Assembly: GCA_016938735.1 (NCBI GenBank)
Contig: JAFGUB010000011.1
Location: forward strand, 1 to 40,696
Direction: 5' to 3'
Origin: Campylobacterales bacterium
GTDB taxonomy: Bacteria > Campylobacterota > Campylobacteria > Campylobacterales > Sulfurimonadaceae
Length of the DNA stretch: 40,696 nucleotides
Position numbers and translations under genes: made by a program. Shown one piece after another: positions 24,669-36,537 of this stretch; the first letter of the stretch is position 1; each line of letters begins with the position of its first letter. Under the pieces are notes generated by a model, which saw nothing but the letters and a program-made list of their open reading frames with translations, ran no database searches and was not told the DNA's origin.

Positions 24669-25696
24669 TACGCCTGCTCCATTTCGATCCACTTAAGCGC
24701 AATGCGCACGGCGTTGGTGGCCGCGCCCACGCGCAGGTTGTCGGCAACGACCCACACGTGCAGCACATTGTCGCGGTAAACGTCGCGGCGGATGCGGCCT
24801 ACGTAGGTTTCATTCTGGTCCGTAGCGATTTTGGGCATGGGGTAGATGCCCTCGTTGGGCTTGTCCATCACGACGATGTTGGGGGCATTTTCGAGCAGGG
24901 CGCGCGCTTCGTCGGCATCGACCGCACCGTCAAAGGTGAGTGTCAAAGATTCGGAGTGGCCGCGTAAGATGGGCACACGCACGCAGGTTGCGGAGACTTC
25001 GATGTTTTTGTGCATGATCTTGACGGTCTCGTTGACCATCTTCATCTCCTCTTTGGTGTAGCCGTTGTCGGTAAAGGAGTCGATCTGGGGGATGAGGTTG
25101 AGCGCGATCTGATGAGGAAACTTTTTGTGTTCACTCTGCTCAAGTTTGAAGGCGAAGAAGTCTTGCATCTGGCGCACCAGCTCCTCCATGGCGCTCATGC
25201 CCGCGCCCGAAGTGGCCTGATAGGTGCTCACATCCACGCGCAGCAGATCATAGGCGTCATCAAGCGGTTTGAGGGTCTGCACCATCTGAATGGTGGAGCA
25301 GTTGGGGTTGGCGATGATGCCCGTGTTTTTCCACAGGGCGATGTCTTTGGGGTTGACCTCGGGGACGACCAGCGGCACGTCGGCGTGCATCCGAAAGTGG
25401 CTGGTGTTGTCGATGACCACCGCGCCCGCACTGGCTGCGATGGGGGCGTACTGGGCTGAAACGCTGCCGCCGGCGCTAAAGAGGGCGATCTGGATCTGCT
25501 CCTCTTCAAAAATGGTGTCGGTGAGCTCCTGGATCACCACCTCTTTGCCCCTAAACGTGACGGTAGTACCCGCCGAGCGCGCGCTGGCGAGCGGCACCAG
25601 TTTGGCCAGAGGAAAATCGACCTCCTCGAGTACGCGTAAAATCTCTTCTCCGACGGCGCCGCTGGCACCGACGACGGCAACGTTGTATTGTTTCAT
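24668..25696 (-). CDS. asd: aspartate-semialdehyde dehydrogenase
   Basis: Makes aspartate semialdehyde from aspartyl phosphate for lysine/diaminopimelate, threonine and methionine synthesis. The 342-residue product begins with the NADP-binding VVGASGAVGEEIL. The catalytic Cys lies in ANPNCSTIQMV (about residue 129), followed by STYQATSGAGM and the substrate-binding RVPILRGHSESL. ATG 25696 overlaps the flgR stop as ATGA. The flgR-asd pairing is conserved in C. jejuni and is not functionally obvious; it may reflect shared transcription only. Confidence 0.96.
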   Translation of the reverse strand: MKQYNVAVVGASGAVGEEILRVLEEVDFPLAKLVPLASARSAGTTVTFRGKEVVIQELTDTIFEEEQIQIALFSAGGSVSAQYAPIAASAGAVVIDNTSHFRMHADVPLVVPEVNPKDIALWKNTGIIANPNCSTIQMVQTLKPLDDAYDLLRVDVSTYQATSGAGMSAMEELVRQMQDFFAFKLEQSEHKKFPHQIALNLIPQIDSFTDNGYTKEEMKMVNETVKIMHKNIEVSATCVRVPILRGHSESLTLTFDGAVDADEARALLENAPNIVVMDKPNEGIYPMPKIATDQNETYVGRIRRDVYRDNVLHVWVVADNLRVGAATNAVRIALKWIEMEQA

Positions 25697-27000
25697 GGGT
25701 TTGCTCCTTGTAGATTGTAAAGTTTTATTTTGTTTTTTAGGGCTTCGGGACTAAGTCCCAGCATCGCCGCCGCCTCCGTCGTATCGCCCTTACATGTACG
25801 CAGCAGCTCCTCGATCAGCTCCTGCTCCATGGTGGCGATAGAACGTTTGGGGCGCAGCCCCCGGCTCTCCAAAAAGAGCGCTTCGGCGTTGATCTGCTCG
25901 CCATCGCTTAAAATCACCGCGCGCTCGACGACGGAGATGAGCTCGCGGATATTGCCCGGCCATGCGTACTCCAGCAGTGACTCTTGGGCTTCAATGCTGA
26001 ACTGTTTGGGTGCAAAGCCGTATTGCGCGCTGTGGTGCTGTAGCGTCGCTTCGGCAATAGGAAGAATCTCGTCGCGGCGCTCACGCAGCGGAGGGATAAC
26101 GACAGGGATGGTGTTGAGGCGGTAGTAGAGGTCTTCGCGAAATGCTCCCTCTTGGATCTTTTGGGGCAGATCGGCATTGGTGGCGCAGACGATGCGCACG
26201 TCGATCTTGATGCTCTTGGATGCCCCCAAGCGGCGAATTTCACGCTCTTGCAGGGCGCGCAGCAGTTTGGCCTGAACGCCATAAGGCATCTCGGCGATCT
26301 CATCAAGAAAAAGCGTGCCCCCTTGCGCCAGCTCAAACTGCCCCGCGCGCGCTTCGGTAGCATCGGTAAAGGCCCCCTTTTCAAAGCCGAAGAGTTCGCT
26401 TTCGATGAGGTTGTCGGGGATGGCGGCCATATTGATCGCCACAAAGGGTTTAGCGGCGCGCGGCGAGTGTTCGTGCACGAAGCGGGCAAAGAGCTCTTTG
26501 CCCACGCCGCTCTCTCCAAGCAGCAAGATGCTGGCATCGGTAGCGGCGGCTTTTTGGGTTACATGTAAGGCCTTGTCAAGTGCCTCTGAGTGGCCCAAAA
26601 AGGCGTTTTGCGGTTTTTGGGGTGTTTTTTGCGGATGGCTTTTGACACTCTTTTGCACTTGATCGGAGCGTTTGATCGCCTTGATAAGGGTTTCGATCTC
26701 GAAGGGTTTAAGTAAAAAGTCTTTGACGCCGAGCTGGATCGATTCGATGGCGCGGCCCAGCGTGGCGTTGCCCGTGATGAGGATCACCTCGAAGCGACCG
26801 CCCAGCTCTTTGACAAACTCGATGCCGTCCATGCCGGGCATGTTGATGTCGGAGATGACAAGCTCAAAGCTCTCGTCGAGTTTTTTGAGCGCGTCGCGGG
26901 CGTTTTTGAAGGTGAGCACTTCAAACTCAGGGTGGTCGCCCATAGCGATTTCTAGGGATTTGCGCATGTTGATATCGTCTTCGACGATGGCAATTTTCAC
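25693..27000 (-). CDS. flgR: FlgR-type sigma-54 response regulator
   Basis: An NtrC-family activator that, in Campylobacter and Helicobacter, turns on sigma-54-dependent rod, hook and minor flagellin genes after phosphorylation by FlgS. The 435-residue product has a receiver domain (1-115, phospho-acceptor Asp51). Its AAA+ domain has Walker A GESGVGKE at 162-169 and the sigma-54 loop GAFTDA at 209-214 instead of GAFTGA. A C-terminal Fis-type helix-turn-helix (about 400-430, TEAAAMLGLSPEALKNKI) follows; the H. pylori protein lacks such a domain. GTG 27000 follows AAGGGA. Identification rests on domain order plus its position after flgP/flgQ and before asd. Two sites of the palindrome family lie inside. 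Confidence 0.88.
   Translation of the reverse strand: MKIAIVEDDINMRKSLEIAMGDHPEFEVLTFKNARDALKKLDESFELVISDINMPGMDGIEFVKELGGRFEVILITGNATLGRAIESIQLGVKDFLLKPFEIETLIKAIKRSDQVQKSVKSHPQKTPQKPQNAFLGHSEALDKALHVTQKAAATDASILLLGESGVGKELFARFVHEHSPRAAKPFVAINMAAIPDNLIESELFGFEKGAFTDATEARAGQFELAQGGTLFLDEIAEMPYGVQAKLLRALQEREIRRLGASKSIKIDVRIVCATNADLPQKIQEGAFREDLYYRLNTIPVVIPPLRERRDEILPIAEATLQHHSAQYGFAPKQFSIEAQESLLEYAWPGNIRELISVVERAVILSDGEQINAEALFLESRGLRPKRSIATMEQELIEELLRTCKGDTTEAAAMLGLSPEALKNKIKLYNLQGANP
25790..25799. repeat. TTACATGTAA family, one mismatch
   Basis: TTACATGTAC at the helix-turn-helix end of flgR, read as Thr-Cys-Lys. Confidence 0.8.
26559..26568. repeat. TTACATGTAA palindrome, perfect
   Basis: In flgR between the receiver and AAA+ domains, read as Leu-His-Val. 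Confidence 0.85.
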
Positions 27001-27012
27001 ATGGTCCCTTTG

Positions 27013-27411
27013 CTATTTGATGAGCGCGATTGTAGCAAAGCCCGCTTTAAACTCGACTTCAAAGCAGGCGGTGGGAAAGGTGAGGTCGGTACGGCTTTGG
27101 GTAGCATGGTTGATACTGCGTTCGCGGTGGGTTACATGGTAGGCGTGTCGGCGTAGATAGGCATCAAAATCGTCGCGGCGGCGCTCTAAAAGCGTCGGCA
27201 GATCGCCCTCGCCCTCAAGGATCAAAGCGGGTTCTTTGTTGCCCTTGCACGGTTGCATGGCGCGGCTTACATGTAAGCGCTCCTCTGCCACGGCAGCGCT
27301 TTGCGTGATGAGGCGATACCCTATGAGGTACTCATCGCCATGCAGCGACGCGCAAAGCGCTAGAGCACTACCGAAGCATAGGAGAGAATGATCTCCATTT
27401 CGACTTCGCAC
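27013..27411 (-). CDS. flgQ: FlgQ-like secreted motility protein
   Basis: A 132-residue protein with a signal peptide (SLLCFGSALALCASLHG, cleavage before DEYLIGYR). No domain is recognised from sequence. It lies exactly between flgP and flgR, which is where C. jejuni carries flgQ, required there for motility; the name is given on position and signal peptide, not on proven similarity. GTG 27411 follows AGAGGG at good spacing and overlaps the end of flgP by 52 bases. A perfect TTACATGTAA (27267) is read as Leu-His-Val. Confidence 0.55.
   Translation of the reverse strand: MRSRNGDHSLLCFGSALALCASLHGDEYLIGYRLITQSAAVAEERLHVSRAMQPCKGNKEPALILEGEGDLPTLLERRRDDFDAYLRRHAYHVTHRERSINHATQSRTDLTFPTACFEVEFKAGFATIALIK
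27267..27276. repeat. TTACATGTAA palindrome, extended 14-base form
   Basis: In the flgQ-like gene, read as Leu-His-Val. Flanks make the perfect 14-base palindrome GCTTACATGTAAGC. Confidence 0.88.
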
Positions 27412-27890
27412 AGACCCTCTTTGTAGCTGGTTTCGATCACATTGGCGTGGCGGATCATCGCATTGACGCTGGTGCGCACTTCTGAGCGCTGAACCATCAT
27501 GTTTTTGATGTAGTCATGACCCTCTACATGTACCCCTGCAACCCGCTCGGCGATGGAGCGGTAGCCATCGGCAATGGCCGCGCGTTTGGCCAGCGCAAAG
27601 GCTTGAGAGGGGGAGATGGTGTTGGTAGGCGAAACCCCTTGACCGATCACTTTGATGCTGATCGATTCGCACGGGGTGATCTGATTGGGAAGGCCTTCAA
27701 CCACGGCGCAATCGTCGGTGCAGTAGGTTTTGATTTTTTTGCTTTCGCACTGTGTACTTTGGTTGGGCAGCGCAGTAGTATTTACGGTCGGATCGCTTGC
27801 AGTAAGGGTGCTAGGTTCAGATTCCATCGGGGCGCAGCCTACGAGCATGTAGGCGGCAACCAGTGAGGTGGCGAGAGAAAAGAGGCGCAT
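27360..27890 (-). CDS. flgP: FlgP-like outer-membrane lipoprotein
   Basis: In C. jejuni FlgP is an outer-membrane lipoprotein that builds the basal disk of the flagellar motor. The 176-residue product has a lipobox (LVGC, Cys19), a Cys-containing low-complexity stretch (about 20-75), then an LPP20-type domain (about 80-176) with QAFALAKRAAIADGYRSIAE, GVHVEGHDYIKNMMVQ and VEMEIILSY. ATG 27890 is chosen for its lipoprotein signal and the AAGGA upstream; the frame is open to 27929, across the promoter. A sigma-54 promoter lies 34 bases upstream. The flgP-flgQ-flgR-asd order supports the call. Confidence 0.82.
   Translation of the reverse strand: MRLFSLATSLVAAYMLVGCAPMESEPSTLTASDPTVNTTALPNQSTQCESKKIKTYCTDDCAVVEGLPNQITPCESISIKVIGQGVSPTNTISPSQAFALAKRAAIADGYRSIAERVAGVHVEGHDYIKNMMVQRSEVRTSVNAMIRHANVIETSYKEGLCEVEMEIILSYASVVL
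27524..27533. repeat. TTACATGTAA family, CTACATGTAC variant
   Basis: In flgP, read as Val-His-Val. Confidence 0.7.
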
Positions 27891-27923: not shown

Positions 27924-27940
27924 AAGCAATCAGTGTTCCA
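27924..27940 (-). promoter_or_regulatory. sigma-54 promoter of flgP-flgQ-flgR
   Basis: On the minus strand TGGAAC-ACTGA-TTGCTT gives GG-N10-GC exactly, close to the TGGCAC-N5-TTGCW consensus. It starts four bases below the stop of the upstream outer-membrane gene and ends 34 bases before ATG 27890. Because flgR lies in the same transcript, this implies positive autoregulation. Confidence 0.8.
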
Positions 27941-27943
27941 CTT

Positions 27944-28717
27944 TTAAAAGTAGTAGCGCACGCTGCCAAAAGCGCCGCTGGCTTTAAAGGTGACTTCATC
28001 TTTTTTCTCGGTGGCCTCGAAGGATTCGTACATGTAGCCTCCGCGCAGGGCGATGCCGCCGTAGACACGGTACTCCAAAGCGAGCTTGTAGCTGTTGGCT
28101 TTAACCTCGCCGAAGGCCAGACCGCTGATATCGCCGCCAAGATTGAAGCGACCCACGCGGTAGCTGATCCCAAAATAGGGCATCAGCACCTCCGAATCGA
28201 CGGTGATGAAGTCTTTTTCCAAAACGGGCCCGTTTTGGCGAACGTCGAAACGGTAGGCGATCTTTTTGAGGTTGAGTCCCAGATCAAAGATGAGATCACC
28301 CGTGTAGAGCGGTACGCCAAAGAGATCGATATAGCTGCCCTTGCGGTAGAAATCTTTGGCGATTACGGCATTGATCACCGTGTAGTCGGTCCATGTAGTG
28401 ACGCTGCCGTTGTAGTCCCAACTGACGAACTCTTTGGTCTGCGTCAAAACGGCATTTTTGGAGTCGCTCATGTTGAAGTAGCCAAGCCGCAGCGTGGGGA
28501 GATACCAGCTCTCAAAATTGACCTCTGCGCCGAAATAGCTGATGGGTTCGGCTGCATCGTAAAGCAGATCTTTATCGTAGGTGGTGATGGTGGAGGGATT
28601 TTCAATGGTTCCGTCGAAATGGGGCATGTAAGCACCCAGCTCCACACTAAACGAAGCGGCCATCAGCGCGCTCATCCCAAAAGGCATACATAAAATAAAA
28701 AAGAACATGCGAATCAA
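27944..28717 (-). CDS. outer-membrane beta-barrel protein
   Basis: A 257-residue protein with a signal peptide (FFFILCMPFGMSALMAA) and many amphipathic strands ending in RYYF, the aromatic end typical of barrels inserted by BamA. Strand-like segments include YLPTLRLGYFNM, YFGISYRVGRFNLGGDIS and YKLALEYRVYGGIALRGGY. It may belong to the TIGR04219-like barrels, but this is not certain. The start is TTG 28717, with AAGGGAG at correct spacing; ATG 28708 is too far from it. It is 12 bases after the next barrel gene, so the two form an operon. Its GTACATGTAG site is read as Tyr-Met-Tyr. Confidence 0.75.
   Translation of the reverse strand: MIRMFFFILCMPFGMSALMAASFSVELGAYMPHFDGTIENPSTITTYDKDLLYDAAEPISYFGAEVNFESWYLPTLRLGYFNMSDSKNAVLTQTKEFVSWDYNGSVTTWTDYTVINAVIAKDFYRKGSYIDLFGVPLYTGDLIFDLGLNLKKIAYRFDVRQNGPVLEKDFITVDSEVLMPYFGISYRVGRFNLGGDISGLAFGEVKANSYKLALEYRVYGGIALRGGYMYESFEATEKKDEVTFKASGAFGSVRYYF
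28028..28037. repeat. TTACATGTAA family, GTACATGTAG variant
   Basis: In the outer-membrane gene at 27944-28717, read as Tyr-Met-Tyr with TAC in place of TAA. Confidence 0.7.
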
Positions 28718-28729
28718 GAAAGACTCCCT

Positions 28730-29272
28730 TTAGTAGAGTGAAAAGCGGAAGTTAAGCCCAAGCGAAGCGTGTATCAGGGCCGTGTCATCAAGCATCGTAA
28801 CATCGGCGATTAGATCGAGTACGGGACTAAGGCGTACACCCACGCCAAGCCCTACGCCCAATCCGACGCCTGCCTCTTTGACTTTGACGGTGTAGTGCTT
28901 GGTTTGACCTGAGAGAGCGGCATCGTAGTGGTGATAGACGGCGCCGATACGGGGCTTGAGGTAGAGCCGCTGCGTCACGTGGGTCATAGCGGCTGCGTAA
29001 AGACCGAAGCTGCTGGCAGTCACATCGACATCCAGATCGTCGCCTGAGTCGGTGGTGGGGACGATCGAGCGTGTAGCTTCAGCCTCTAAGGCGGCGTACA
29101 TGTAAGGAGTCTTGTAAACCACGCTGCCTACGCGCGTAGCCGCAGCAATGCCTGGGTCTTGGTCGCTGCTGTATTCGTAAGCGGCGGCTATCGTCACATA
29201 CGCATCACGCGCGGGCGCGGCGTGAAGAACACAGAGACAAAGCGGCAAGATAAGAAGATGTGATGGTTTCAT
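28730..29272 (-). CDS. outer-membrane beta-barrel protein under sigma-54 promoter
   Basis: A 180-residue protein with a signal peptide (LLILPLCLCVLHAAP) and barrel-like strands ending NFRFSLY. I recognise no family; it resembles small OmpA-like or OprG-like barrels in size. ATG 29272 has no Shine-Dalgarno, and the sigma-54 promoter at 29283-29299 would place the transcript start within about one base of the ATG, which implies a leaderless mRNA. The next barrel gene follows after 12 bases. A GTACATGTAA site is read as Tyr-Met-Tyr. Confidence 0.72.
   Translation of the reverse strand: MKPSHLLILPLCLCVLHAAPARDAYVTIAAAYEYSSDQDPGIAAATRVGSVVYKTPYMYAALEAEATRSIVPTTDSGDDLDVDVTASSFGLYAAAMTHVTQRLYLKPRIGAVYHHYDAALSGQTKHYTVKVKEAGVGLGVGLGVGVRLSPVLDLIADVTMLDDTALIHASLGLNFRFSLY
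29096..29105. repeat. TTACATGTAA family, one mismatch
   Basis: GTACATGTAA in the outer-membrane gene at 28730-29272, read as Tyr-Met-Tyr with TAC in place of TAA. Confidence 0.8.
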
Positions 29273-29282
29273 AAAAAATTCA

Positions 29283-29299
29283 TAGCAAAAAATGTGCCA
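29283..29299 (-). promoter_or_regulatory. sigma-54 promoter abutting the outer-membrane gene start
   Basis: On the minus strand TGGCAC-ATTTT-TTGCTA matches the -24/-12 consensus with exact GG-N10-GC spacing. The predicted start point, about 12 bases after the GC, is near 29273, directly before ATG 29272. It should drive the two outer-membrane barrel genes, perhaps through FlgR. Confidence 0.8.
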
Positions 29300-29360: not shown

Positions 29361-30239
29361 TTACTTCAGCACTTTGAGCGTGCCAAAAGGGGGAACTTTT
29401 TTAGAAGGGAAGACGCCGATGTAGCAGCGGCGTTGCATGAAGTCGTATATGTAAAAGCTCTTTTCTGCATATTGCGGGGCATAACGGATGTGGGTAGCAG
29501 GGTCGGCGGGGGCGTATTTGAGCGTTGCTGCGGCATCTGTTTTGATTTTTGGGTATATAAGCATCTGGCGAGAATCGGAGTAGATGCCGCGTCGGTAGTG
29601 GCTGAGATAGCGAGATTGTAGGGCGATAGCATCTTTGGGGTTTTCGGTCGCATCGGCATCCATACCGCTGTCGGTGAGGGTGGCATAGTCGCTTTGGCGT
29701 GCAAATTCAAGACATTGTTCGCTTACATGTAAGGGTACGCTCTTGTGCTCCATGGCTTTTTCAGCGTAGATGAAGAGACCTACTTCGGGCTCTATGGCGC
29801 GCAGCAGTAAGATACGGGTCTGATTGATCGCTTCGAGAATGTCGCGCTTTGGGCTGTATCCCGCCCATATACCGCTTTGCGGGTCATAGACAAAGACAAA
29901 GCGGATCTGCGCTTGCGCTTCAAAAGTCGCAAGCACGTCGATTCCTTCGCGCGGCGCGGCGATGTGGTTCCATCCTGCTTGAAGCTTTAGGGTATCGCCT
30001 GACATCTTAGGCGCTTTTTTGGGTGCGATGGGAGCAAGGATGAAGTCGTTTGGGCCTACATGTAAGGTCTGCAGCGCGGAAAGTTCAAGCGGCAGTGAGG
30101 CACTCCATGAGCCGTTGGATTCGCTCCAGAGAATCGTCGATTCAGGTAGCGTCACATTGGTATCAAAAGTATGAAACGTCGGGAGTACGAGCGCGGCATG
30201 AAGCCAAGAAAAATGTAAGAACAGAAGAATAAAGTGCAT
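29361..30239 (-). CDS. secreted protein of unknown function with a GWN motif
   Basis: The 292-residue product begins with a signal peptide (FILLFLHFSWLHAALV). It contains LKLQAGWNHIAAPREG near 90, followed by FVFVYDPQSGIWAGYSP near 115. This GWN...YD...W.GYSP arrangement also appears in part in the 1212-residue surface protein upstream (EGWNLIALNDG), suggesting a shared surface module. The C-terminal part has no recognised domain. ATG 30239 follows AAGGTTG, but that Shine-Dalgarno lies inside a strong hairpin (30243-30265). It is 43 bases downstream of the large surface protein gene. It has two sites of the palindrome family. Confidence 0.65.
   Translation of the reverse strand: MHFILLFLHFSWLHAALVLPTFHTFDTNVTLPESTILWSESNGSWSASLPLELSALQTLHVGPNDFILAPIAPKKAPKMSGDTLKLQAGWNHIAAPREGIDVLATFEAQAQIRFVFVYDPQSGIWAGYSPKRDILEAINQTRILLLRAIEPEVGLFIYAEKAMEHKSVPLHVSEQCLEFARQSDYATLTDSGMDADATENPKDAIALQSRYLSHYRRGIYSDSRQMLIYPKIKTDAAATLKYAPADPATHIRYAPQYAEKSFYIYDFMQRRCYIGVFPSKKVPPFGTLKVLK
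29723..29732. repeat. TTACATGTAA palindrome, perfect
   Basis: In the secreted GWN-motif gene, read as Leu-His-Val. Confidence 0.85.
30056..30065. repeat. TTACATGTAA family, one mismatch
   Basis: CTACATGTAA in the secreted GWN-motif gene, read as Leu-His-Val. It is the last site before a 7.4 kb site-free stretch. Confidence 0.8.
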
Positions 30240-30242
30240 GCA

Positions 30243-30265
30243 CAACCTTCTTTTTAAGAAGATTG
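30243..30265 (-). promoter_or_regulatory. intercistronic hairpin covering the Shine-Dalgarno
   Basis: On the minus strand CAATCTTCTT-AAA-AAGAAGGTTG forms a ten-pair stem with one G-U and a three-base loop. Its 3' arm contains the AAGG that serves ATG 30239. No T tract follows, so it is more likely translational control or an mRNA end than a terminator. Confidence 0.55.
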
Positions 30266-30282
30266 TAGCATATCTTAAAGTA

Positions 30283-33200
30283 TTAGAGATCCATCTCGAG
30301 CACTTTGTTGGCTATAAGCTCAACAGGACTTTCTGTGCTGTCATTGGCTCCGGCAACAGGGAACTGGAAGTCATAGACATTGCCTTGAAGCTTGATGTAG
30401 GCCCGTTTACCAACGTAGGCCTCGTTGTAGGCAATTTCAGCGACGACATTGCCATCGGTGACATAAGCGATCAGCGGTGCACTGTTGATCAAGTTGTTGT
30501 CGATGAGCGGATTGTAGGCGATTTTGACCTCTTGGGCTTCATTGAGCGAAGCGATAGTGATACCGGTATTGACTGTTTGAACACCTTGGCTTTCGCAGTC
30601 GTTGTTGTAGTAGGTGCCTGAGGTGGTTGGGTTTTTGACACCGTTGTAGGTGTTGGCCATCAAGATGGCATCTTTGAGTACAGGTTTGTAATCAAACTCT
30701 ACCGCATCCGAAGCGTTGCCTCCACCTATGGTTCCGGCCTCATCGACGGCAATGGCGGCGATGGTGTATGGCGCGGCATTGTAGGCTTTTACGGCAAGCA
30801 CCTTACAAAGGTTGTAGTTAGCGGCTGCAGCTTTTTTGATCTCGGCTTCTCCGATTGAAGCTTCGATGGTTGCGGTTTCGGGAATGTAGGTAGTTGAGAC
30901 ATCAAAGAGATAAAACGCTGCCGCATCGGCACTCGCAGAAGCAAGCGCTACGGTCGCACCGCTATTGAGTGTGACGGTAGGTTTGGCAGGTTTTTGATAA
31001 TCGACGATCATGTTGACATTTTGTTTGAGCAAGTGATTGCCGAGACCGTCACTCACATAGGCCTCGACGGAGTAGTTCTCGCCAGCGATCATGTTGGCGA
31101 TCTCATAAGAGCTCATTTTGCCGCTAAAGACGGTTGGAGCTGTGGTAGAGTTGGCCAGCTCGATGCTGTCACCGTTGATGACTACTTTGACCATATTGGA
31201 CTTCCAGTCATCGGTGGTGTCAAAGCCGTCAATTTTGAGCTCGATGTTGCCCGAGTAGTGGTTGTAGGTACTATTGTCGCTTACGTTGAAGTGGCTGGTA
31301 TAGACCTGCGTAGTGATATTGGCTTCGCTGATGCTTAGCGGATTTTCGCCGCCGCTCTCTACAAACGCCCAGTATCCGGCGACATAATCGGAGCTAAAGA
31401 GGCTGTAGTCTTGAGAGCTGAGCCACTGCGCGGGTGAGCGGGTGAGGTCGAGACTGGTCCATGAAACTAGCCCATCGGTCAGGTCAGTAGAGCCGGAAAC
31501 CAGCGCTTTGGTGGTGTAGCCCGCGTTTTTGAGCGTAAAGATCGGACCGTCATAGACATAGTTGGGGGTATAGACAGCGTTGTATTTGAGATCTTCAGTG
31601 AGATCAGGGCTGAAGGCAGCGAGGAAGCCTTTGTTGACGGCTCCGATGACAGGTGACGTAGTAAAGGCTGCAACCACTGCTCCATCTGTTTCTGCATATG
31701 CAGCAGAAACTATGTCTGGTCCACTGATTGTAATTGAAGCTTCGGTGATACCAGACATGGCAGCAGTATAGTTGTGTGATACAGTTGAAGAGAGTCCAAG
31801 TTCGCCTAGTTGAATGCGAATTTGTGCAACTAATGCATCCAAAAACGCTGCGTTTTCAGCATCGCCACCGGCAGTAAGGTCGCCAGGAGTAATGCCGGTA
31901 CCTGCCGTACCATTGATGGTGATAGTGATGATATCGTCAGCATCAGAAAGGTCTGCATCATCACCTGGAGTGAGCACTACTTTGGTTTCCAGCGGCACTT
32001 TGACCAAAGCGTGAAGCGAGTAGACTCCTTTGATCGCGCCTTTGGCGATATCGTCGTTGGTGGTGGTGTCGACGATGTTTTCGCCGGTGGTTTCGATGAC
32101 ATCGAATTCATTGCTGTCCACTTCGTCTGAGACAACGACCAATTTTGTTGCTTCGCTAGGCACTACGGCTGAAGAGACGAGGGTGGTGCCGATATTATTG
32201 ATGGCGGTTGCGGCCTCTGTTGTCGTATCGTCAGTGGTTGCAATAGAAGCGGTATTGGTTGTGTCGTCTGCACTGTTGATGATATCGATGGTACCGGTTC
32301 CATTGTCTGTGTTATCAAATGCAAACACCCGCGTAAAGGTATGATCGCGGATATAGAAAGGCTCCGTAGAGGCCAGAAGGATATGATCGGTGGTGCCATC
32401 ATAATCTAAAAGATCGATTTCGGTAGATGTTATATCTGGATGCGCTTCAAGGAGTACTTCTGTGGCTGTCAGTGTTGCGCCCATTGCGATGGGTGTGTCG
32501 CCTGCCGCAGTTGCCCCTTTGATCTGTACGCTTGAGCCATTAGTAAGCGCTTGCGCACTGCCTGCGCCGGTTAGCGGCTTGACGATCGTGACATATTCGC
32601 CGTATTTGGACATAACACCGATTGTCGTAAGGTTAGTAGCTTCAGTGGTTGCATCGCCTTTGGTAGTAGGATCAAGCGGTGCAGCACCCGTAAGCGTAGT
32701 AACAGCACTAACACTATTAGCTGTAGCTTCATCTTTAAGAATAAACTGCTTATTGGAGATGATCGCTATTTGGGTTGCTGAAACTGCAAAAGCGCGGATA
32801 TGAAAGCTCATTGGAAGGGTACCAGCAAGCTTAGCCGCTTCAACAGCAGCATTGATGGTGCGCGCATCATCGGATGTATTTGCATTATTAACATCACCCA
32901 TAATCGTTACTGAATAGTTATCAGACGGGTCGCTGATGATGATTCCGTGTGTAGCAAGCGATAGTGCCATTGTTGCAATCAACCCCGTAGAAGCATGACG
33001 TACCACGCCGTCATTAAGGGCGATGAGATTCCACCCCTCTACTAGATTCTCTTCATACGTGGCTGCAGAGAGACTGGAGGTGCCTACCAGCAGGCCGCCG
33101 GCAGTGGCTGTAACAGCCGTCGTCTCCATTTTACCCCAGTAGCCTTTGCCCGGCTCGATGGTGGTGAAGTCGTTGGCCGTTTCTCTGTTGCGTGAGTCGT

Positions 33201-33921
33201 AGATTTCCCAGCGCTCTTGCTGGGCGTTGTAGTTGTAGATACGGTGGAAGTCGCCGGCATCGGGCTGATCTTTGTGGGTGTTTTCTACATACTGATGGGC
33301 CAAAACAGGATTGTCAGAAAAGTCGTAGTCCACCACGGAGTTGTCTTCGTTCACCTTTAGGTTCCATAGAGTGGTTGCGAGAGTAGGGGGAACGGCGACG
33401 TTGTAGACCCCAACGGCAGGATTGGAGTAGGTGTTGGCAGCGGAAATGGTCACGGAGTAGACATCGCCTGAGCCGATACGGTACTCTAGCTTTTTGCCCT
33501 CAAACGAAGCTTTGTACTGTAGGGCAAACTGTGGCGTACCGCCTTCTGTACTTGTGATGTACATCGTGCGCACGGGTTCGGTTTCGTTGTAAGCCATACC
33601 GGTGGTATTGACGCGGGCTTCAACTTGGGTGATGGTATCTAAGGCTTTGAGCCAGCCAAAGTATTCGCCTGAAACCAAAAAGCCTGCGCTGTAAGCTGCG
33701 TCCGGACCGGTATCGACTGCTTTGAAGCTGACAATATCGGGGATGGAAAATTGCCCGTCGATCCCTGCGTTGGCACCGGTGCCTTTGAGGCCCGTGACCC
33801 CGAACATCACCCATTTGTCATCACTTGCCGTAGTGGAGAGCGGGAGGTAATCGGCGGTTGCGATGGTCGAGGCAAGCACTGCAATAGCAGCAGTGCTCAA
33901 CATAATTTTTTTTTGAAACAT
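30283..33921 (-). CDS. large secreted cell-surface protein
   Basis: A 1212-residue protein with a clear signal peptide (STAAIAVLASTIATADY, cleavage near 23). It is poor in Cys, rich in Thr, Ala, Asp and Val, with many short beta-strand-like segments and a Thr/Asp-rich low-complexity stretch around residues 540-620 (such as ADDTTNTASIATTDDTTTEA). It contains KGYWGKMET and EGWNLIALNDG near 265-310 and a comparable GYWAFVESGG near 855, hinting at repeated surface modules. There is no visible sortase, PEP-CTERM or autotransporter anchor. S-layer or adhesin-type function is an inference. ATG 33921 follows AAAGGAG and the two lipoprotein genes upstream read into it. No copy of the TTACATGTAA family occurs in it. 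Confidence 0.75.
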   Translation of the reverse strand: MFQKKIMLSTAAIAVLASTIATADYLPLSTTASDDKWVMFGVTGLKGTGANAGIDGQFSIPDIVSFKAVDTGPDAAYSAGFLVSGEYFGWLKALDTITQVEARVNTTGMAYNETEPVRTMYITSTEGGTPQFALQYKASFEGKKLEYRIGSGDVYSVTISAANTYSNPAVGVYNVAVPPTLATTLWNLKVNEDNSVVDYDFSDNPVLAHQYVENTHKDQPDAGDFHRIYNYNAQQERWEIYDSRNRETANDFTTIEPGKGYWGKMETTAVTATAGGLLVGTSSLSAATYEENLVEGWNLIALNDGVVRHASTGLIATMALSLATHGIIISDPSDNYSVTIMGDVNNANTSDDARTINAAVEAAKLAGTLPMSFHIRAFAVSATQIAIISNKQFILKDEATANSVSAVTTLTGAAPLDPTTKGDATTEATNLTTIGVMSKYGEYVTIVKPLTGAGSAQALTNGSSVQIKGATAAGDTPIAMGATLTATEVLLEAHPDITSTEIDLLDYDGTTDHILLASTEPFYIRDHTFTRVFAFDNTDNGTGTIDIINSADDTTNTASIATTDDTTTEAATAINNIGTTLVSSAVVPSEATKLVVVSDEVDSNEFDVIETTGENIVDTTTNDDIAKGAIKGVYSLHALVKVPLETKVVLTPGDDADLSDADDIITITINGTAGTGITPGDLTAGGDAENAAFLDALVAQIRIQLGELGLSSTVSHNYTAAMSGITEASITISGPDIVSAAYAETDGAVVAAFTTSPVIGAVNKGFLAAFSPDLTEDLKYNAVYTPNYVYDGPIFTLKNAGYTTKALVSGSTDLTDGLVSWTSLDLTRSPAQWLSSQDYSLFSSDYVAGYWAFVESGGENPLSISEANITTQVYTSHFNVSDNSTYNHYSGNIELKIDGFDTTDDWKSNMVKVVINGDSIELANSTTAPTVFSGKMSSYEIANMIAGENYSVEAYVSDGLGNHLLKQNVNMIVDYQKPAKPTVTLNSGATVALASASADAAAFYLFDVSTTYIPETATIEASIGEAEIKKAAAANYNLCKVLAVKAYNAAPYTIAAIAVDEAGTIGGGNASDAVEFDYKPVLKDAILMANTYNGVKNPTTSGTYYNNDCESQGVQTVNTGITIASLNEAQEVKIAYNPLIDNNLINSAPLIAYVTDGNVVAEIAYNEAYVGKRAYIKLQGNVYDFQFPVAGANDSTESPVELIANKVLEMDL

Positions 33922-33937
33922 AAGAGACTCCTTTTGT

Positions 33938-34540
33938 CTAGTTTAATCTGTACACTTTGGTTTTTGTCAAACTATTATCTACTGCCGAGTTGATCTCATA
34001 GCGGTAGCAACTGTATTTTCCGTTGCTGTCTTGGGGTGTGCGGACATAGACCGTTTTGGGCACGTTGTATAACCAAGCAGCATTATAGGTAAAACGATAG
34101 AGCGTTTCGGATTGATTGACAAATGTGCTTTGCAGCGTCTGTGTCAAATCGGGATAGTAAAGAATCACTTGCGTCATCTCCACCTTCGCGTTGTATGCCA
34201 TTCGAGAACTGATCTCGACACCGTTGGGTTCATCTGCCGTACCTAGTGGATCAAAGCTGCTGTCGATGAGGGCATTGAACAAGCCGCTTGCCATACAGGC
34301 GTTGGGATCTTCGATGGCCTCATTGGCATCAAAAATCGTGTCTAAACTGCTGACACTGCTACTGGCCCCACTGCTTGATGATGTACTCATGCTTGAGAGG
34401 CTGCTTGAAGCATCAGATGTGCTTGACGTAGTTGATGCAGAACTGTCACTTTGATAATCACGTACGCTAGAATCAGTTTCGACGCAACCTATCGTCACGA
34501 TAGCCACCATACAAGCACCCAATACTTTTTTGTAGATCAT
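33938..34540 (-). CDS. Ser-rich lipoprotein
   Basis: A 200-residue lipoprotein with lipobox VTIGC (Cys19). A Ser/Thr-rich linker follows (about 25-70, long runs of Ser with Thr, Ala and Asp), then a folded C-terminal domain (about 80-200) with FTYNAAWLYNVPKTVYVRTP and KYSCYRYEIN. No family is recognised. ATG 34540 is chosen because the signal peptide begins there; the frame is open further to 34684, but that part overlaps the small lipoprotein gene. The Shine-Dalgarno is weak, so it may be translated by coupling to the gene ending at 34551. It lies 16 bases upstream of the large surface protein gene and may help anchor it. Confidence 0.72.
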   Translation of the reverse strand: MIYKKVLGACMVAIVTIGCVETDSSVRDYQSDSSASTTSSTSDASSSLSSMSTSSSSGASSSVSSLDTIFDANEAIEDPNACMASGLFNALIDSSFDPLGTADEPNGVEISSRMAYNAKVEMTQVILYYPDLTQTLQSTFVNQSETLYRFTYNAAWLYNVPKTVYVRTPQDSNGKYSCYRYEINSAVDNSLTKTKVYRLN

Positions 34541-34550
34541 CAGCTGTCGC

Positions 34551-34733
34551 TTACTCTTCCGGAATCTGTGGAATCGGAGGGTAAGAGGCGCTAAGGGTGA
34601 CCTCATCAGCTTTGATTGTTGGAGGCGTAACTGTCTCTTCTGTAATGGACGAAGAGACACTACTGCCACCCCCCCCACAGGCACTAAGCATGACTGCTAC
34701 TGCTATAGCTACTGCAATGACTTTTGTGTTCAT
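34551..34733 (-). CDS. small lipoprotein
   Basis: A 60-residue lipoprotein: signal peptide KVIAVAIAVAVMLSAC with the lipid-carrying Cys near residue 19. Gly/Ser residues follow, then a short Pro-rich tail ending PPIPQIPEE. ATG 34733 has GAGGAG seven bases upstream. It is the first gene of the surface-protein operon running 34733 to 29361. Its job is unknown; small lipoproteins of this kind often accompany secreted surface proteins. Confidence 0.68.
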   Translation of the reverse strand: MNTKVIAVAIAVAVMLSACGGGGSSVSSSITEETVTPPTIKADEVTLSASYPPIPQIPEE

Positions 34734-34989
34734 AATCACTCCTCATTTAGTATTCATAGCCGCAGGGCTATCTTACGATGTAGATCGACCTAAATTTGAT
34801 TCGACTTTAATCTTGAGATCATTTTAGTTGCGGATAGGCAAATATCACCCACTATAAGCTACAAACTATGGATTAGTGTTACCTATTGAAACGATATGTG
34901 CTTGTGCAGATAAAATAATACGAACTTATAGGAATGAAGCCTTAGAGTTTCAAAAAAAACGACGATTCTGCTGGGCGAGCAAGGATTTA
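34734..34989. promoter_or_regulatory. intergenic region between flagellin and surface-protein operon
   Basis: 256 AT-rich bases with no gene. It holds a short perfect hairpin (ATAGCC-GCAG-GGCTAT, 34756-34771) in the leader of the small lipoprotein gene and a possible minus-strand -10 TATAGT (34856-34851) without a good -35. An eight-base T run on the minus strand (34959-34952) follows the flagellin stop, but no clear stem precedes it. Confidence 0.35.
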
Positions 34990-36537
34990 TTAGTTTTCAA
35001 AATCACCCAAAAGCCGCATGACATCGCCTTGGCGGATATTGGCTTGAGCAAGAGCGAAGCTACCGGCTTTTGTGAGGATATCTTGCTTGGAGAAGTTGGC
35101 CATTTCTTGGGCAAAGTCGATGTCACGAATGGAAGATTCGGCAGCTTTGGTCACGATGCTCATGTAGTCGGCGTTGTTCAAAGAGGATTGAAGCTGGTTT
35201 TGCATCGAGCCTATTTCGCTATGGATGGCGGTGAGCTGTTCGCGCGCGGCGTCGATGATGTCGATGCTGTCCATGATGGCCGAGAGCGGCGAATTAAAGA
35301 TGCGGCCAAGGGTAGCGCCGGAGATGTCGAGATTGTCATTAAGGTCACGGCTACCGGTGAGGTCGATCAAGTTAAGATTGCGAAGATAGTCCATACTGCT
35401 GCCTGCGCCCCGCCCGCTGTTGACTTCGGCATTGGCTCCGATATTGAGGCTATTTAAGCTGTTTTGCATAGCACTGCTGAGCGTGATGGGCAGGCCGTGT
35501 ACGTTGCGCAATTTTAAGTTGCCCATGAAGTTGTCGATATCGCCGATGATTTTCGTGTTGGCGTGGTGAGGTGTGACGCTAATAGCGCGTCCTTCAGGGC
35601 TGTTGAGGAGTAGTTGGCCTTGGGAGGTCAGTGAGGCGTATACGCCTGTTTGCTCCGAGACGGCGTTGATGGCGTTGACGAGGGTACCGTCACTGTCGTT
35701 GTCTTGAACGGTAAGTGCGCCGATCGTGACACCGTTGATGCTGAAGGTATCAGGTAGGGTGCCCGCTTGGATGTTGTTGAGATAATTTTGGCTGAGATCG
35801 ACATAGCCGACATACTCCACCTCTGCGGTAGCTTTGATACCGGTGCGGTCGCTGTAGCGGTTGATGATATCGGCAACCGCACCCAACCCTTCACCCGGGC
35901 CATATCCGACAACTGCGCTTTGAAGTTTTACCTCTTTGCCATTGACCATGAAGCCGATCTGCATCGTTTGAGAGAGGGTAGCATCGTTGTGGTAAATTTG
36001 AGAGTTGTGGACTTGGAACTGGACTTGGCCGATCTTGCTCGATTGGGTGGCGCCGATGGTGAGGGTATTGGTTTGGTCGGCGTAGGCGCCGATTTGAAAC
36101 TCTTTGTTGGTAAAGGTGCCTTGGAGCAGCGGGATATTGTTGAAACTGGTGGTGCTTGCGATGGTATTCATCGATTCGATTATTTTAAAGGCACTTTTTT
36201 GGAGGAGATCTCGGCTGCTGAGGGTTTGCCCATCTTGAGCAGCTTGAATGGCCAATACTTTGAGCGAATCGGCAAGATTGATTTGTGAGGAGAGTGCTTT
36301 GTCTGCCATTTGAAGCAGGCTAATACCGATATTGGCATTTTTTGTGGCTTCTGCAAAGCCGGCAGATTGCATGCGTAGGCTGTCGGCTATCATCATTCCG
36401 GCTGCATCATCTTTTGCACTGTTGATGCGTAAGCCTGAACTTATTTTTTCAAGTGAGGAGTTTAAAAGATCTTGATTTTTTTGGTAGTTGACGTAGGTTT
36501 TGAGGGCTGTGGTATAAGATGAAATGTTTGATGACAC
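34990..36537 (-). CDS. flagellin, Campylobacterota type
   Basis: A 515-residue filament protein, close in length to H. pylori FlaB. The N-terminal D0/D1 region has SLEKISSGLRINSAKDDAAGM, and AIQAAQDGQTLSS and TSFNNIPLLQGTFTNKEFQIGAY follow. The central variable part contains FSINGVTIGAL, and the C-terminal D0/D1 region has IRDIDFAQEMANFSKQDIL and GSFALAQANIRQGDVMRLL. The very N-terminus (SSNISSYTTAL) lacks the usual FRINTN, so export or capping interactions may differ. The start is GTG 36537 with GGAGG upstream. Whether it is the major or a minor flagellin cannot be told. No palindrome-family site lies in it. Confidence 0.92.
   Translation of the reverse strand: MSSNISSYTTALKTYVNYQKNQDLLNSSLEKISSGLRINSAKDDAAGMMIADSLRMQSAGFAEATKNANIGISLLQMADKALSSQINLADSLKVLAIQAAQDGQTLSSRDLLQKSAFKIIESMNTIASTTSFNNIPLLQGTFTNKEFQIGAYADQTNTLTIGATQSSKIGQVQFQVHNSQIYHNDATLSQTMQIGFMVNGKEVKLQSAVVGYGPGEGLGAVADIINRYSDRTGIKATAEVEYVGYVDLSQNYLNNIQAGTLPDTFSINGVTIGALTVQDNDSDGTLVNAINAVSEQTGVYASLTSQGQLLLNSPEGRAISVTPHHANTKIIGDIDNFMGNLKLRNVHGLPITLSSAMQNSLNSLNIGANAEVNSGRGAGSSMDYLRNLNLIDLTGSRDLNDNLDISGATLGRIFNSPLSAIMDSIDIIDAAREQLTAIHSEIGSMQNQLQSSLNNADYMSIVTKAAESSIRDIDFAQEMANFSKQDILTKAGSFALAQANIRQGDVMRLLGDFEN

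Follow-up and report, generated by a model that had tools for sequence, protein, structure and literature searches.

A gene cassette for a giant exported protein beside flagellar genes of Campylobacterales: a candidate flagellar accessory

The window analysed here, meaning the whole stretch of 40,696 nucleotides from contig JAFGUB010000011.1 of a Campylobacterales bacterium (assembly GCA_016938735.1), contains at 29361-34733 a small lipoprotein gene, a Ser-rich lipoprotein gene, a gene for a giant exported protein and a gene for an exported partner with a GWN motif (Table 1). The original prediction had described these four open reading frames as one run, and they are indeed all on the minus strand, at the sizes described, with intergenic gaps of 10, 16 and 43 bases. 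The Ser-rich lipoprotein has a C-terminal domain (CTD) with two conserved Cys residues and a final KVYR motif. Signal peptides and lipoboxes were judged by eye throughout. Giant, partner and lipoproteins matched no Pfam or NCBIfam family above its cut-off, and no known anchor was recognised in the giant set with these collections, in line with the earlier remark that no standard anchor is visible. The proposed four-gene operon stands as a gene set, which is real and conserved, and falls as to its boundary: the unit does not end at 29361 and extends in relatives into genes for an outer-membrane protein (OMP) and FlgP, and in the window to 27360.

The cassette of the window is located between gyrA and flgP-flgR, with a flagellin gene and gyrA (the latter recognised by eye) upstream. 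The window FlgP reached 23.7 bits against PF02169, for which the cut-off is 25.9, and this copy adjoining the cassette is the single FlgP found in the genome. The gene order in C. jejuni is gyrA-flgP-flgQ-flgR, and from this order we presume that the neighbouring reading frame encodes FlgQ; a sequence search with its product gave no match. The adjoining flagellin gene has a GTG start in the list of open reading frames and an E-value of 7.5e-35, compared with 6.5e-46 for another flagellin of the same genome, and it may encode a specialised minor flagellin.

Table 1. Features of the window (positions on the 40,696-nucleotide stretch)
Feature	Position	Strand	Remarks
Small lipoprotein	34551-34733	-	60 aa; lipobox LSAC by eye; Pro-rich C-terminal end PPIPQIPEE
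Ser-rich lipoprotein	33938-34540	-	200 aa from ATG
Giant exported protein	30283-33921	-	1212 aa; Sec-type signal peptide by eye
GWN partner, exported	29361-30239	-	292 aa from ATG, 294 from TTG
GWN motif of giant	33028-33036	-	residues 296-298
GWN motif of partner	29967-29975	-	
Flagellin-hook-IN-like domain a of giant	32677-32955	-	PF07196 in 4/24 homologous segments, best E 8.8e-4
Flagellin-hook-IN-like domain b of giant	32053-32340	-	PF07196 in 6/32 segments, best E 1.6e-5
Possible third IN-like domain of giant, weak	31609-31947	-	secondary structure pattern; against domain b E 0.013
Fn3/Ig-like domain pair of giant	30685-31350	-	model residues 835-1056; Z 6-6.8, common arrangement
C-terminal segment of giant, common to GWN partner	30349-30456	-	profile comparison
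OMP, beta-barrel-like	28730-29272	-	180 aa; PF13505 E 4e-4, below cut-off
OMP, counterpart of relatives' cassette OMP	27944-28717	-	TIGR04219 E 7e-11, below cut-off; relatives' profile E 1.3e-70
FlgP, LPP20-type basal disk protein	27360-27890	-	PDB 9hmf_C, C. jejuni periplasmic scaffold, E 1.5e-22
Probable FlgQ	27013-27411	-	position only
FlgR, sigma-54 activator of flagellar regulon	25693-27000	-	NF049963 E 3.6e-196, 652 bits, cut-off 750
Flagellin gene adjoining cassette	34990-36537	-	Pfam, NCBIfam matches
Sigma-54-type promoter TGGCACATTTTTTGCT	29284-29299	-	before OMP 28730-29272
Sigma-54-type promoter TGGAACACTGATTGCT	27925-27940	-	before flgP
Sigma-28-like site TAAAGT-N16-CGAT	34784-34809	-	about 50 bases before small lipoprotein gene

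The giant was modelled by AlphaFold from a 38-row alignment as a chain of beta domains (mean pLDDT 83.9, pTM 0.75). Its GWN segment and that of the partner match with a profile E-value of 7e-5 over 17 columns only, so what had been described as a segment occurring in both secreted products is confirmed as a short conserved motif. The C-terminal segments of the two proteins provide a stronger link (E 7.7e-7; partner segment against the whole giant profile, E 2.9e-5). The partner and the CTD lipoprotein are more weakly related in their C-terminal segments (E 0.0012), and direct profile comparison of the Ser-rich lipoprotein's CTD with the giant detected no similarity, so these comparisons do not establish that a C-terminal segment is shared by all three products. 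A possible second occurrence of the partner's motif lies close to the N-terminus of the giant (E 1.8e-4). The model of the partner (pLDDT 84.1) found no fold match with Foldseek (E above 0.1) or VIA (best Z 2.5), which is not evidence of a new fold, and profile matches of the partner to ADP-ribosyltransferase (E 0.024-0.72) were set aside as chance.

Two domains of the giant, a and b, resemble each other (profile E 2e-4) and are flagellin-hook-IN-like, as judged from PF07196 matches in some of their homologues; the window copies themselves do not match. No Pfam family other than PF07196 has matches in more than two of the 38 giants, and the 24 Pfam families matched across their alignment do not include Flagellin_N or Flagellin_C. 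Against the PDB, the profile of domain b found flagellin 6x80 with an E-value of 7.4e-5 (Flagellin A in the PDB table, which we take to be that of C. jejuni) and a second flagellin at 0.2, while that of domain a gave nothing credible (E 0.2 and worse). Structural alignment of the IN-like region with VIA gave the filament assembly complex 9u4r (88 residues at rmsd 2.5, Z 7.2) and H. pylori FliD 6iwy (172 residues at rmsd 19.3, Z 6.2); these Z-scores, like those of the Fn3-like pair, are below 8, a range in which they can reflect a common arrangement. A PDB sequence search with the giant alone found no match, and its whole profile had no credible one (E 0.23 and worse). Foldseek listed muscle and receptor Fn3 proteins with a TM-score of at most 0.12 by query length, and this list reflects chains of beta domains only.

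The original prediction had been staked on co-occurrence of its genes in other genomes, and this was borne out. Out of 228 genomes of the same family, 18 had a match to the giant, and 16 with full-length or contig-split giants were counted as carriers, G472 and G499 being set aside for matches of about 60 residues. The small lipoprotein beside the giant set and the Ser-rich/CTD lipoprotein were each present in 16/16 carriers and the GWN partner in 15/16 (it is missing in G001), and a homologous gene set in 15 other genomes of the family, one of them without the partner, is more than chance. The conserved unit is larger still, since the OMP was found in 15/16 carriers (the contig of G512 instead goes on with other lipoproteins and then ends) and an adjacent FlgP in 14/16 (all except G020 and G512). 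Many cassettes have in addition a large extra lipoprotein with the same CTD. In or beside the cassette of two relatives (L113:12650-17578 and L120:1620-6002) there are very large lipoproteins with 14 FG-GAP repeats and cadherin or bacterial Ig domains, which are an adhesin-like, variable part of the cassette.

Beyond this family, giants were found in 13 of the 14 genomes of family f15, one of these 13 (G195) having only a fragment at a contig end, and in all five genomes of family f23, with several giants per genome. The order-wide sample had giants in 19 of 398 genomes and the phylum-wide sample in six of 397 at E 1e-10, all within the same order. At four f15 loci (L063, L066, L067 and L058) there is a related operon in which the giant follows lipoproteins of 650 and 300 residues and precedes small Pro-rich proteins, and several of the same genomes have a separate, stand-alone giant that is sigma-54-driven. 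The presence of the cassette in only 16/228 family genomes implies that it is not needed for motility. Flagellin presence was rejected as a proof of flagellar linkage: at E <= 1e-30 flagellin was found in 14/16 carriers and 156/212 others, which is no clear enrichment and does not discriminate, and at E 1e-3 all 36 of 36 genomes matched, including the giant-less G205. As to the flagellins themselves, the complete, giant-carrying genome G469 has five tandem short flagellin genes (272-281 aa) far from its cassette (L192:7139-11934), and contig C105 of G510, the genome of L122 and L123, encodes flagellins of 813-817 residues, compared with about 280-500 in other carriers.

Control signals of the flagellar type accompany the cassette. 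The two perfect sigma-54-type sites of the window compare with 0.08 expected, and none of 100 shuffles had two. They precede the adjacent OMP and flgP, while the four-gene operon itself has only a sigma-28-like site, which is not significant alone (three matches in the window, 1.33 expected) and whose -10 element CGATCT departs from the CGATwt given in PMC4626219, where C. jejuni flgP is described as sigma-54-dependent. Across 51 loci (651 kb) there were 71 sigma-54-type sites, 39 of them 5-170 bases before an open reading frame, and these frames are almost all giants, cassette heads, OMPs, lipoproteins, FliK and FlgP. With related sequences counted several times, as in all our promoter tallies, the pattern at the right spacing preceded 22/61 giants and cassette heads (11/42 giants and 11/19 heads) and 16/458 other reading frames (Fisher p 4.5e-13, ignoring relatedness), and at four wrong spacings it preceded 0/61. 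The sigma-28-like scan was less clean: several other giants have such sites, and with spacers N15-17 they preceded 8/42 giants, 2/19 heads and 10/458 others, but the control spacing N13 gave 3/19 heads.

The cassette can be seen as a unit in another genus, g2, where it ends with the OMP and a second FlgP (FlgP2) and lies directly upstream of fliK-flgD-flgE; at loci L188 and L193, FlgP2 is followed by fliK, flgD and two hook-type proteins (flgD named by an NCBIfam match, fliK and the hook proteins partly by eye). The site was empty in 6/6 giant-less g2 genomes examined, with no profile match to giant, partner, CTD lipoprotein, FlgP or OMP and the order dnaG, other genes, a 139-residue gene, a short gene and fliK, which indicates that the unit, including FlgP2 and OMP, is gained or lost together. 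Two FlgP were found in 4/4 g2 carriers searched, a canonical copy beside gyrA and FlgR and another in the cassette, and one in 7/7 non-carriers. FlgP2, whose L113 copy exceeds the PF02169 cut-off (28.4 bits), retains a complete LPP20-type core; its N-terminal part is short, and a lipobox could not be seen by eye. The 139-residue gene near fliK (L207:9107-9526 and homologues, with a MAGVHFSFDNF-type start) is itself conserved at the insertion site. A second complete flagellar system in the carriers was considered and rejected: FlhA was single in carriers and non-carriers alike where it was found (33/36 genomes with a match; the two rows of G020 are two partial pieces), so the cassette is not a second flagellum.

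Membership of the cassette in the flagellar regulon and its functional coupling to FlgP are well supported at the level of sequence, where the gene set, its gain and loss as a unit, its flagellar location, the sigma-54 sites, the FlgP paralogue and the IN-like domains can be read directly. In some sulfur-oxidising relatives of Campylobacter the cassette moves as a unit beside flagellar genes and carries flagellar control signals, and we consider that its products probably build a so far unrecognised component of the flagellum, or something attached around it, and not a general surface coat. More specifically, the chances seem to us evenly balanced that the cassette encodes an envelope or surface accessory of the flagellar regulon built around a FlgP-type disk. 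According to this proposal, the Sec-exported giant, the GWN partner, the two lipoproteins and the OMP would be made under flagellar sigma factors and would work together with the FlgP-type outer-membrane disk protein. FlgP, or the second FlgP borne by the cassette, would form or extend a disk that surrounds the flagellum beneath the outer membrane. This disk would carry the lipoproteins and the OMP, to which the giant would be docked, possibly by way of the C-terminal segment common to it and the partner, and the giant would encircle the base of the flagellum as a collar, a ring or a fibre layer. Linkage and joint regulation do not by themselves prove physical association with the flagellum, and we infer this association of the giant, its docking and the side of the outer membrane on which it lies. 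Several findings weigh against this proposal: the cassette is present in few genomes of the family, carriers show no clear enrichment of flagellin, the cadherin and FG-GAP lipoproteins of some relatives fit adhesion better than a motor component, the giant of the window matches no Pfam family, the Z-scores are no higher than common arrangements can give, and the window's sigma-28-like site has no significance alone. We entertain more tentatively, and with somewhat less confidence than the accessory role as such, a structure so far unrecognised in Campylobacterota, in which giants with FliD/flagellin-like domains would surround the flagellar base with an outer collar or a ring at the surface, assembled on an additional FlgP disk reserved for them, and which would have spread between species as a cassette of about ten kilobases that plugs into the hook locus.

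The main alternative, possible though in our view rather unlikely, is a surface adhesin of the flagellar regulon: the giant would reach the cell surface, where the lipoproteins and the OMP would keep it in place and where it would fasten the cell to particles, sulfur or other cells, having only its regulation in common with the flagellum, like FrhA in Vibrio cholerae. The beta-domain architecture with its Fn3-like pair, the large and variable lipoproteins within or next to the cassettes of relatives, with their cadherin, Big and FG-GAP repeats, the patchy presence within the family (16/228) and the several giants per genome in f23 would all suit an adhesin, which nevertheless leaves unexplained the FlgP paralogue in the cassette, its repeated placement beside flgP or fliK and the flagellin-IN-like domains. 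We find it improbable that the cassette encodes an accessory confined to the periplasm, where it would bear load or serve as a stator scaffold like the Pfl proteins, with nothing outside the outer membrane. The Sec-type signal peptides (by eye), the lack of an outer-membrane secretion signal or anchor recognised by Pfam or NCBIfam and the dedicated FlgP paralogue agree with such a role, but the outer membrane and the surface are suggested by the OMPs, by the spacer of the Ser-rich lipoprotein and by the large lipoproteins of adhesin-like type, and no likeness to Pfl proteins, which were not a direct query, turned up. Of the S-layer-like or adhesin system originally proposed, the adhesin half has the modest probability given above, whereas the S-layer half, to which a large secreted beta-rich protein with lipoproteins might have pointed, is very hard to uphold and was rejected as unsupported, because no S-layer homology or other known S-layer anchor domain was found in the giant with Pfam and NCBIfam or across the 38-giant alignment with Pfam, and because linkage, promoters and the FlgP paralogue point to the flagellum.

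Campylobacterota serve as a model for flagellar motors of elaborate build and high torque, equipped with additional disks and scaffolds. If the accessory built around a FlgP-type disk is real, a cassette with its own FlgP copy and a giant with flagellin-like domains would add a type of part not described before to such motors and would show how flagellar parts can be gained as whole units. This can be tested directly, since among close relatives some have the site empty and others filled. The nearest known structure is the FlgP/FlgQ basal disk of C. jejuni, which the cassette recalls in ending with a FlgP gene and, in the window, with a FlgP that matches 9hmf_C; FlgP2 differs from the C. jejuni protein in being an additional copy whose N-terminal part is short and in which no lipobox was seen by eye, and the available text of PMC12222027 describes no giant, GWN partner or CTD lipoproteins with that disk. 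Two domains of the giant have a beta-beta-alpha-beta arrangement and appear related to the IN motif (PF07196) of flagellin, FliD and hook-associated proteins. The axial proteins flagellin, FliD, FlgK and FlgL, however, have the D0/D1 helices of PF00669 and PF00700, and the giant, which matches neither family and carries a Sec-type signal peptide, is therefore not one of the axial proteins that leave the cell through the flagellum. In Helicobacter pylori the lipoprotein HP0838 is encoded in an operon with flgP, an arrangement for which no giant protein is named in the accessible part of PMC11756786. The hemagglutinin FrhA is likewise a large exported protein under flagellar regulation, but according to PMC10865825 it is a repeats-in-toxin adhesin, whereas the signal peptide of the giant is of the Sec type, and Pfam and NCBIfam searches at E up to 1 found neither RTX repeats nor a C-terminal translocator barrel in it. 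The Campylobacterota flagellar parts covered in the available sections of PMC9321776 include no giant exported protein, and a literature search at the level of titles and the beginnings of abstracts returned nothing on such a cassette. Flagellar accessory proteins as such are known, and the giant family and its cassette look like a new form among them.
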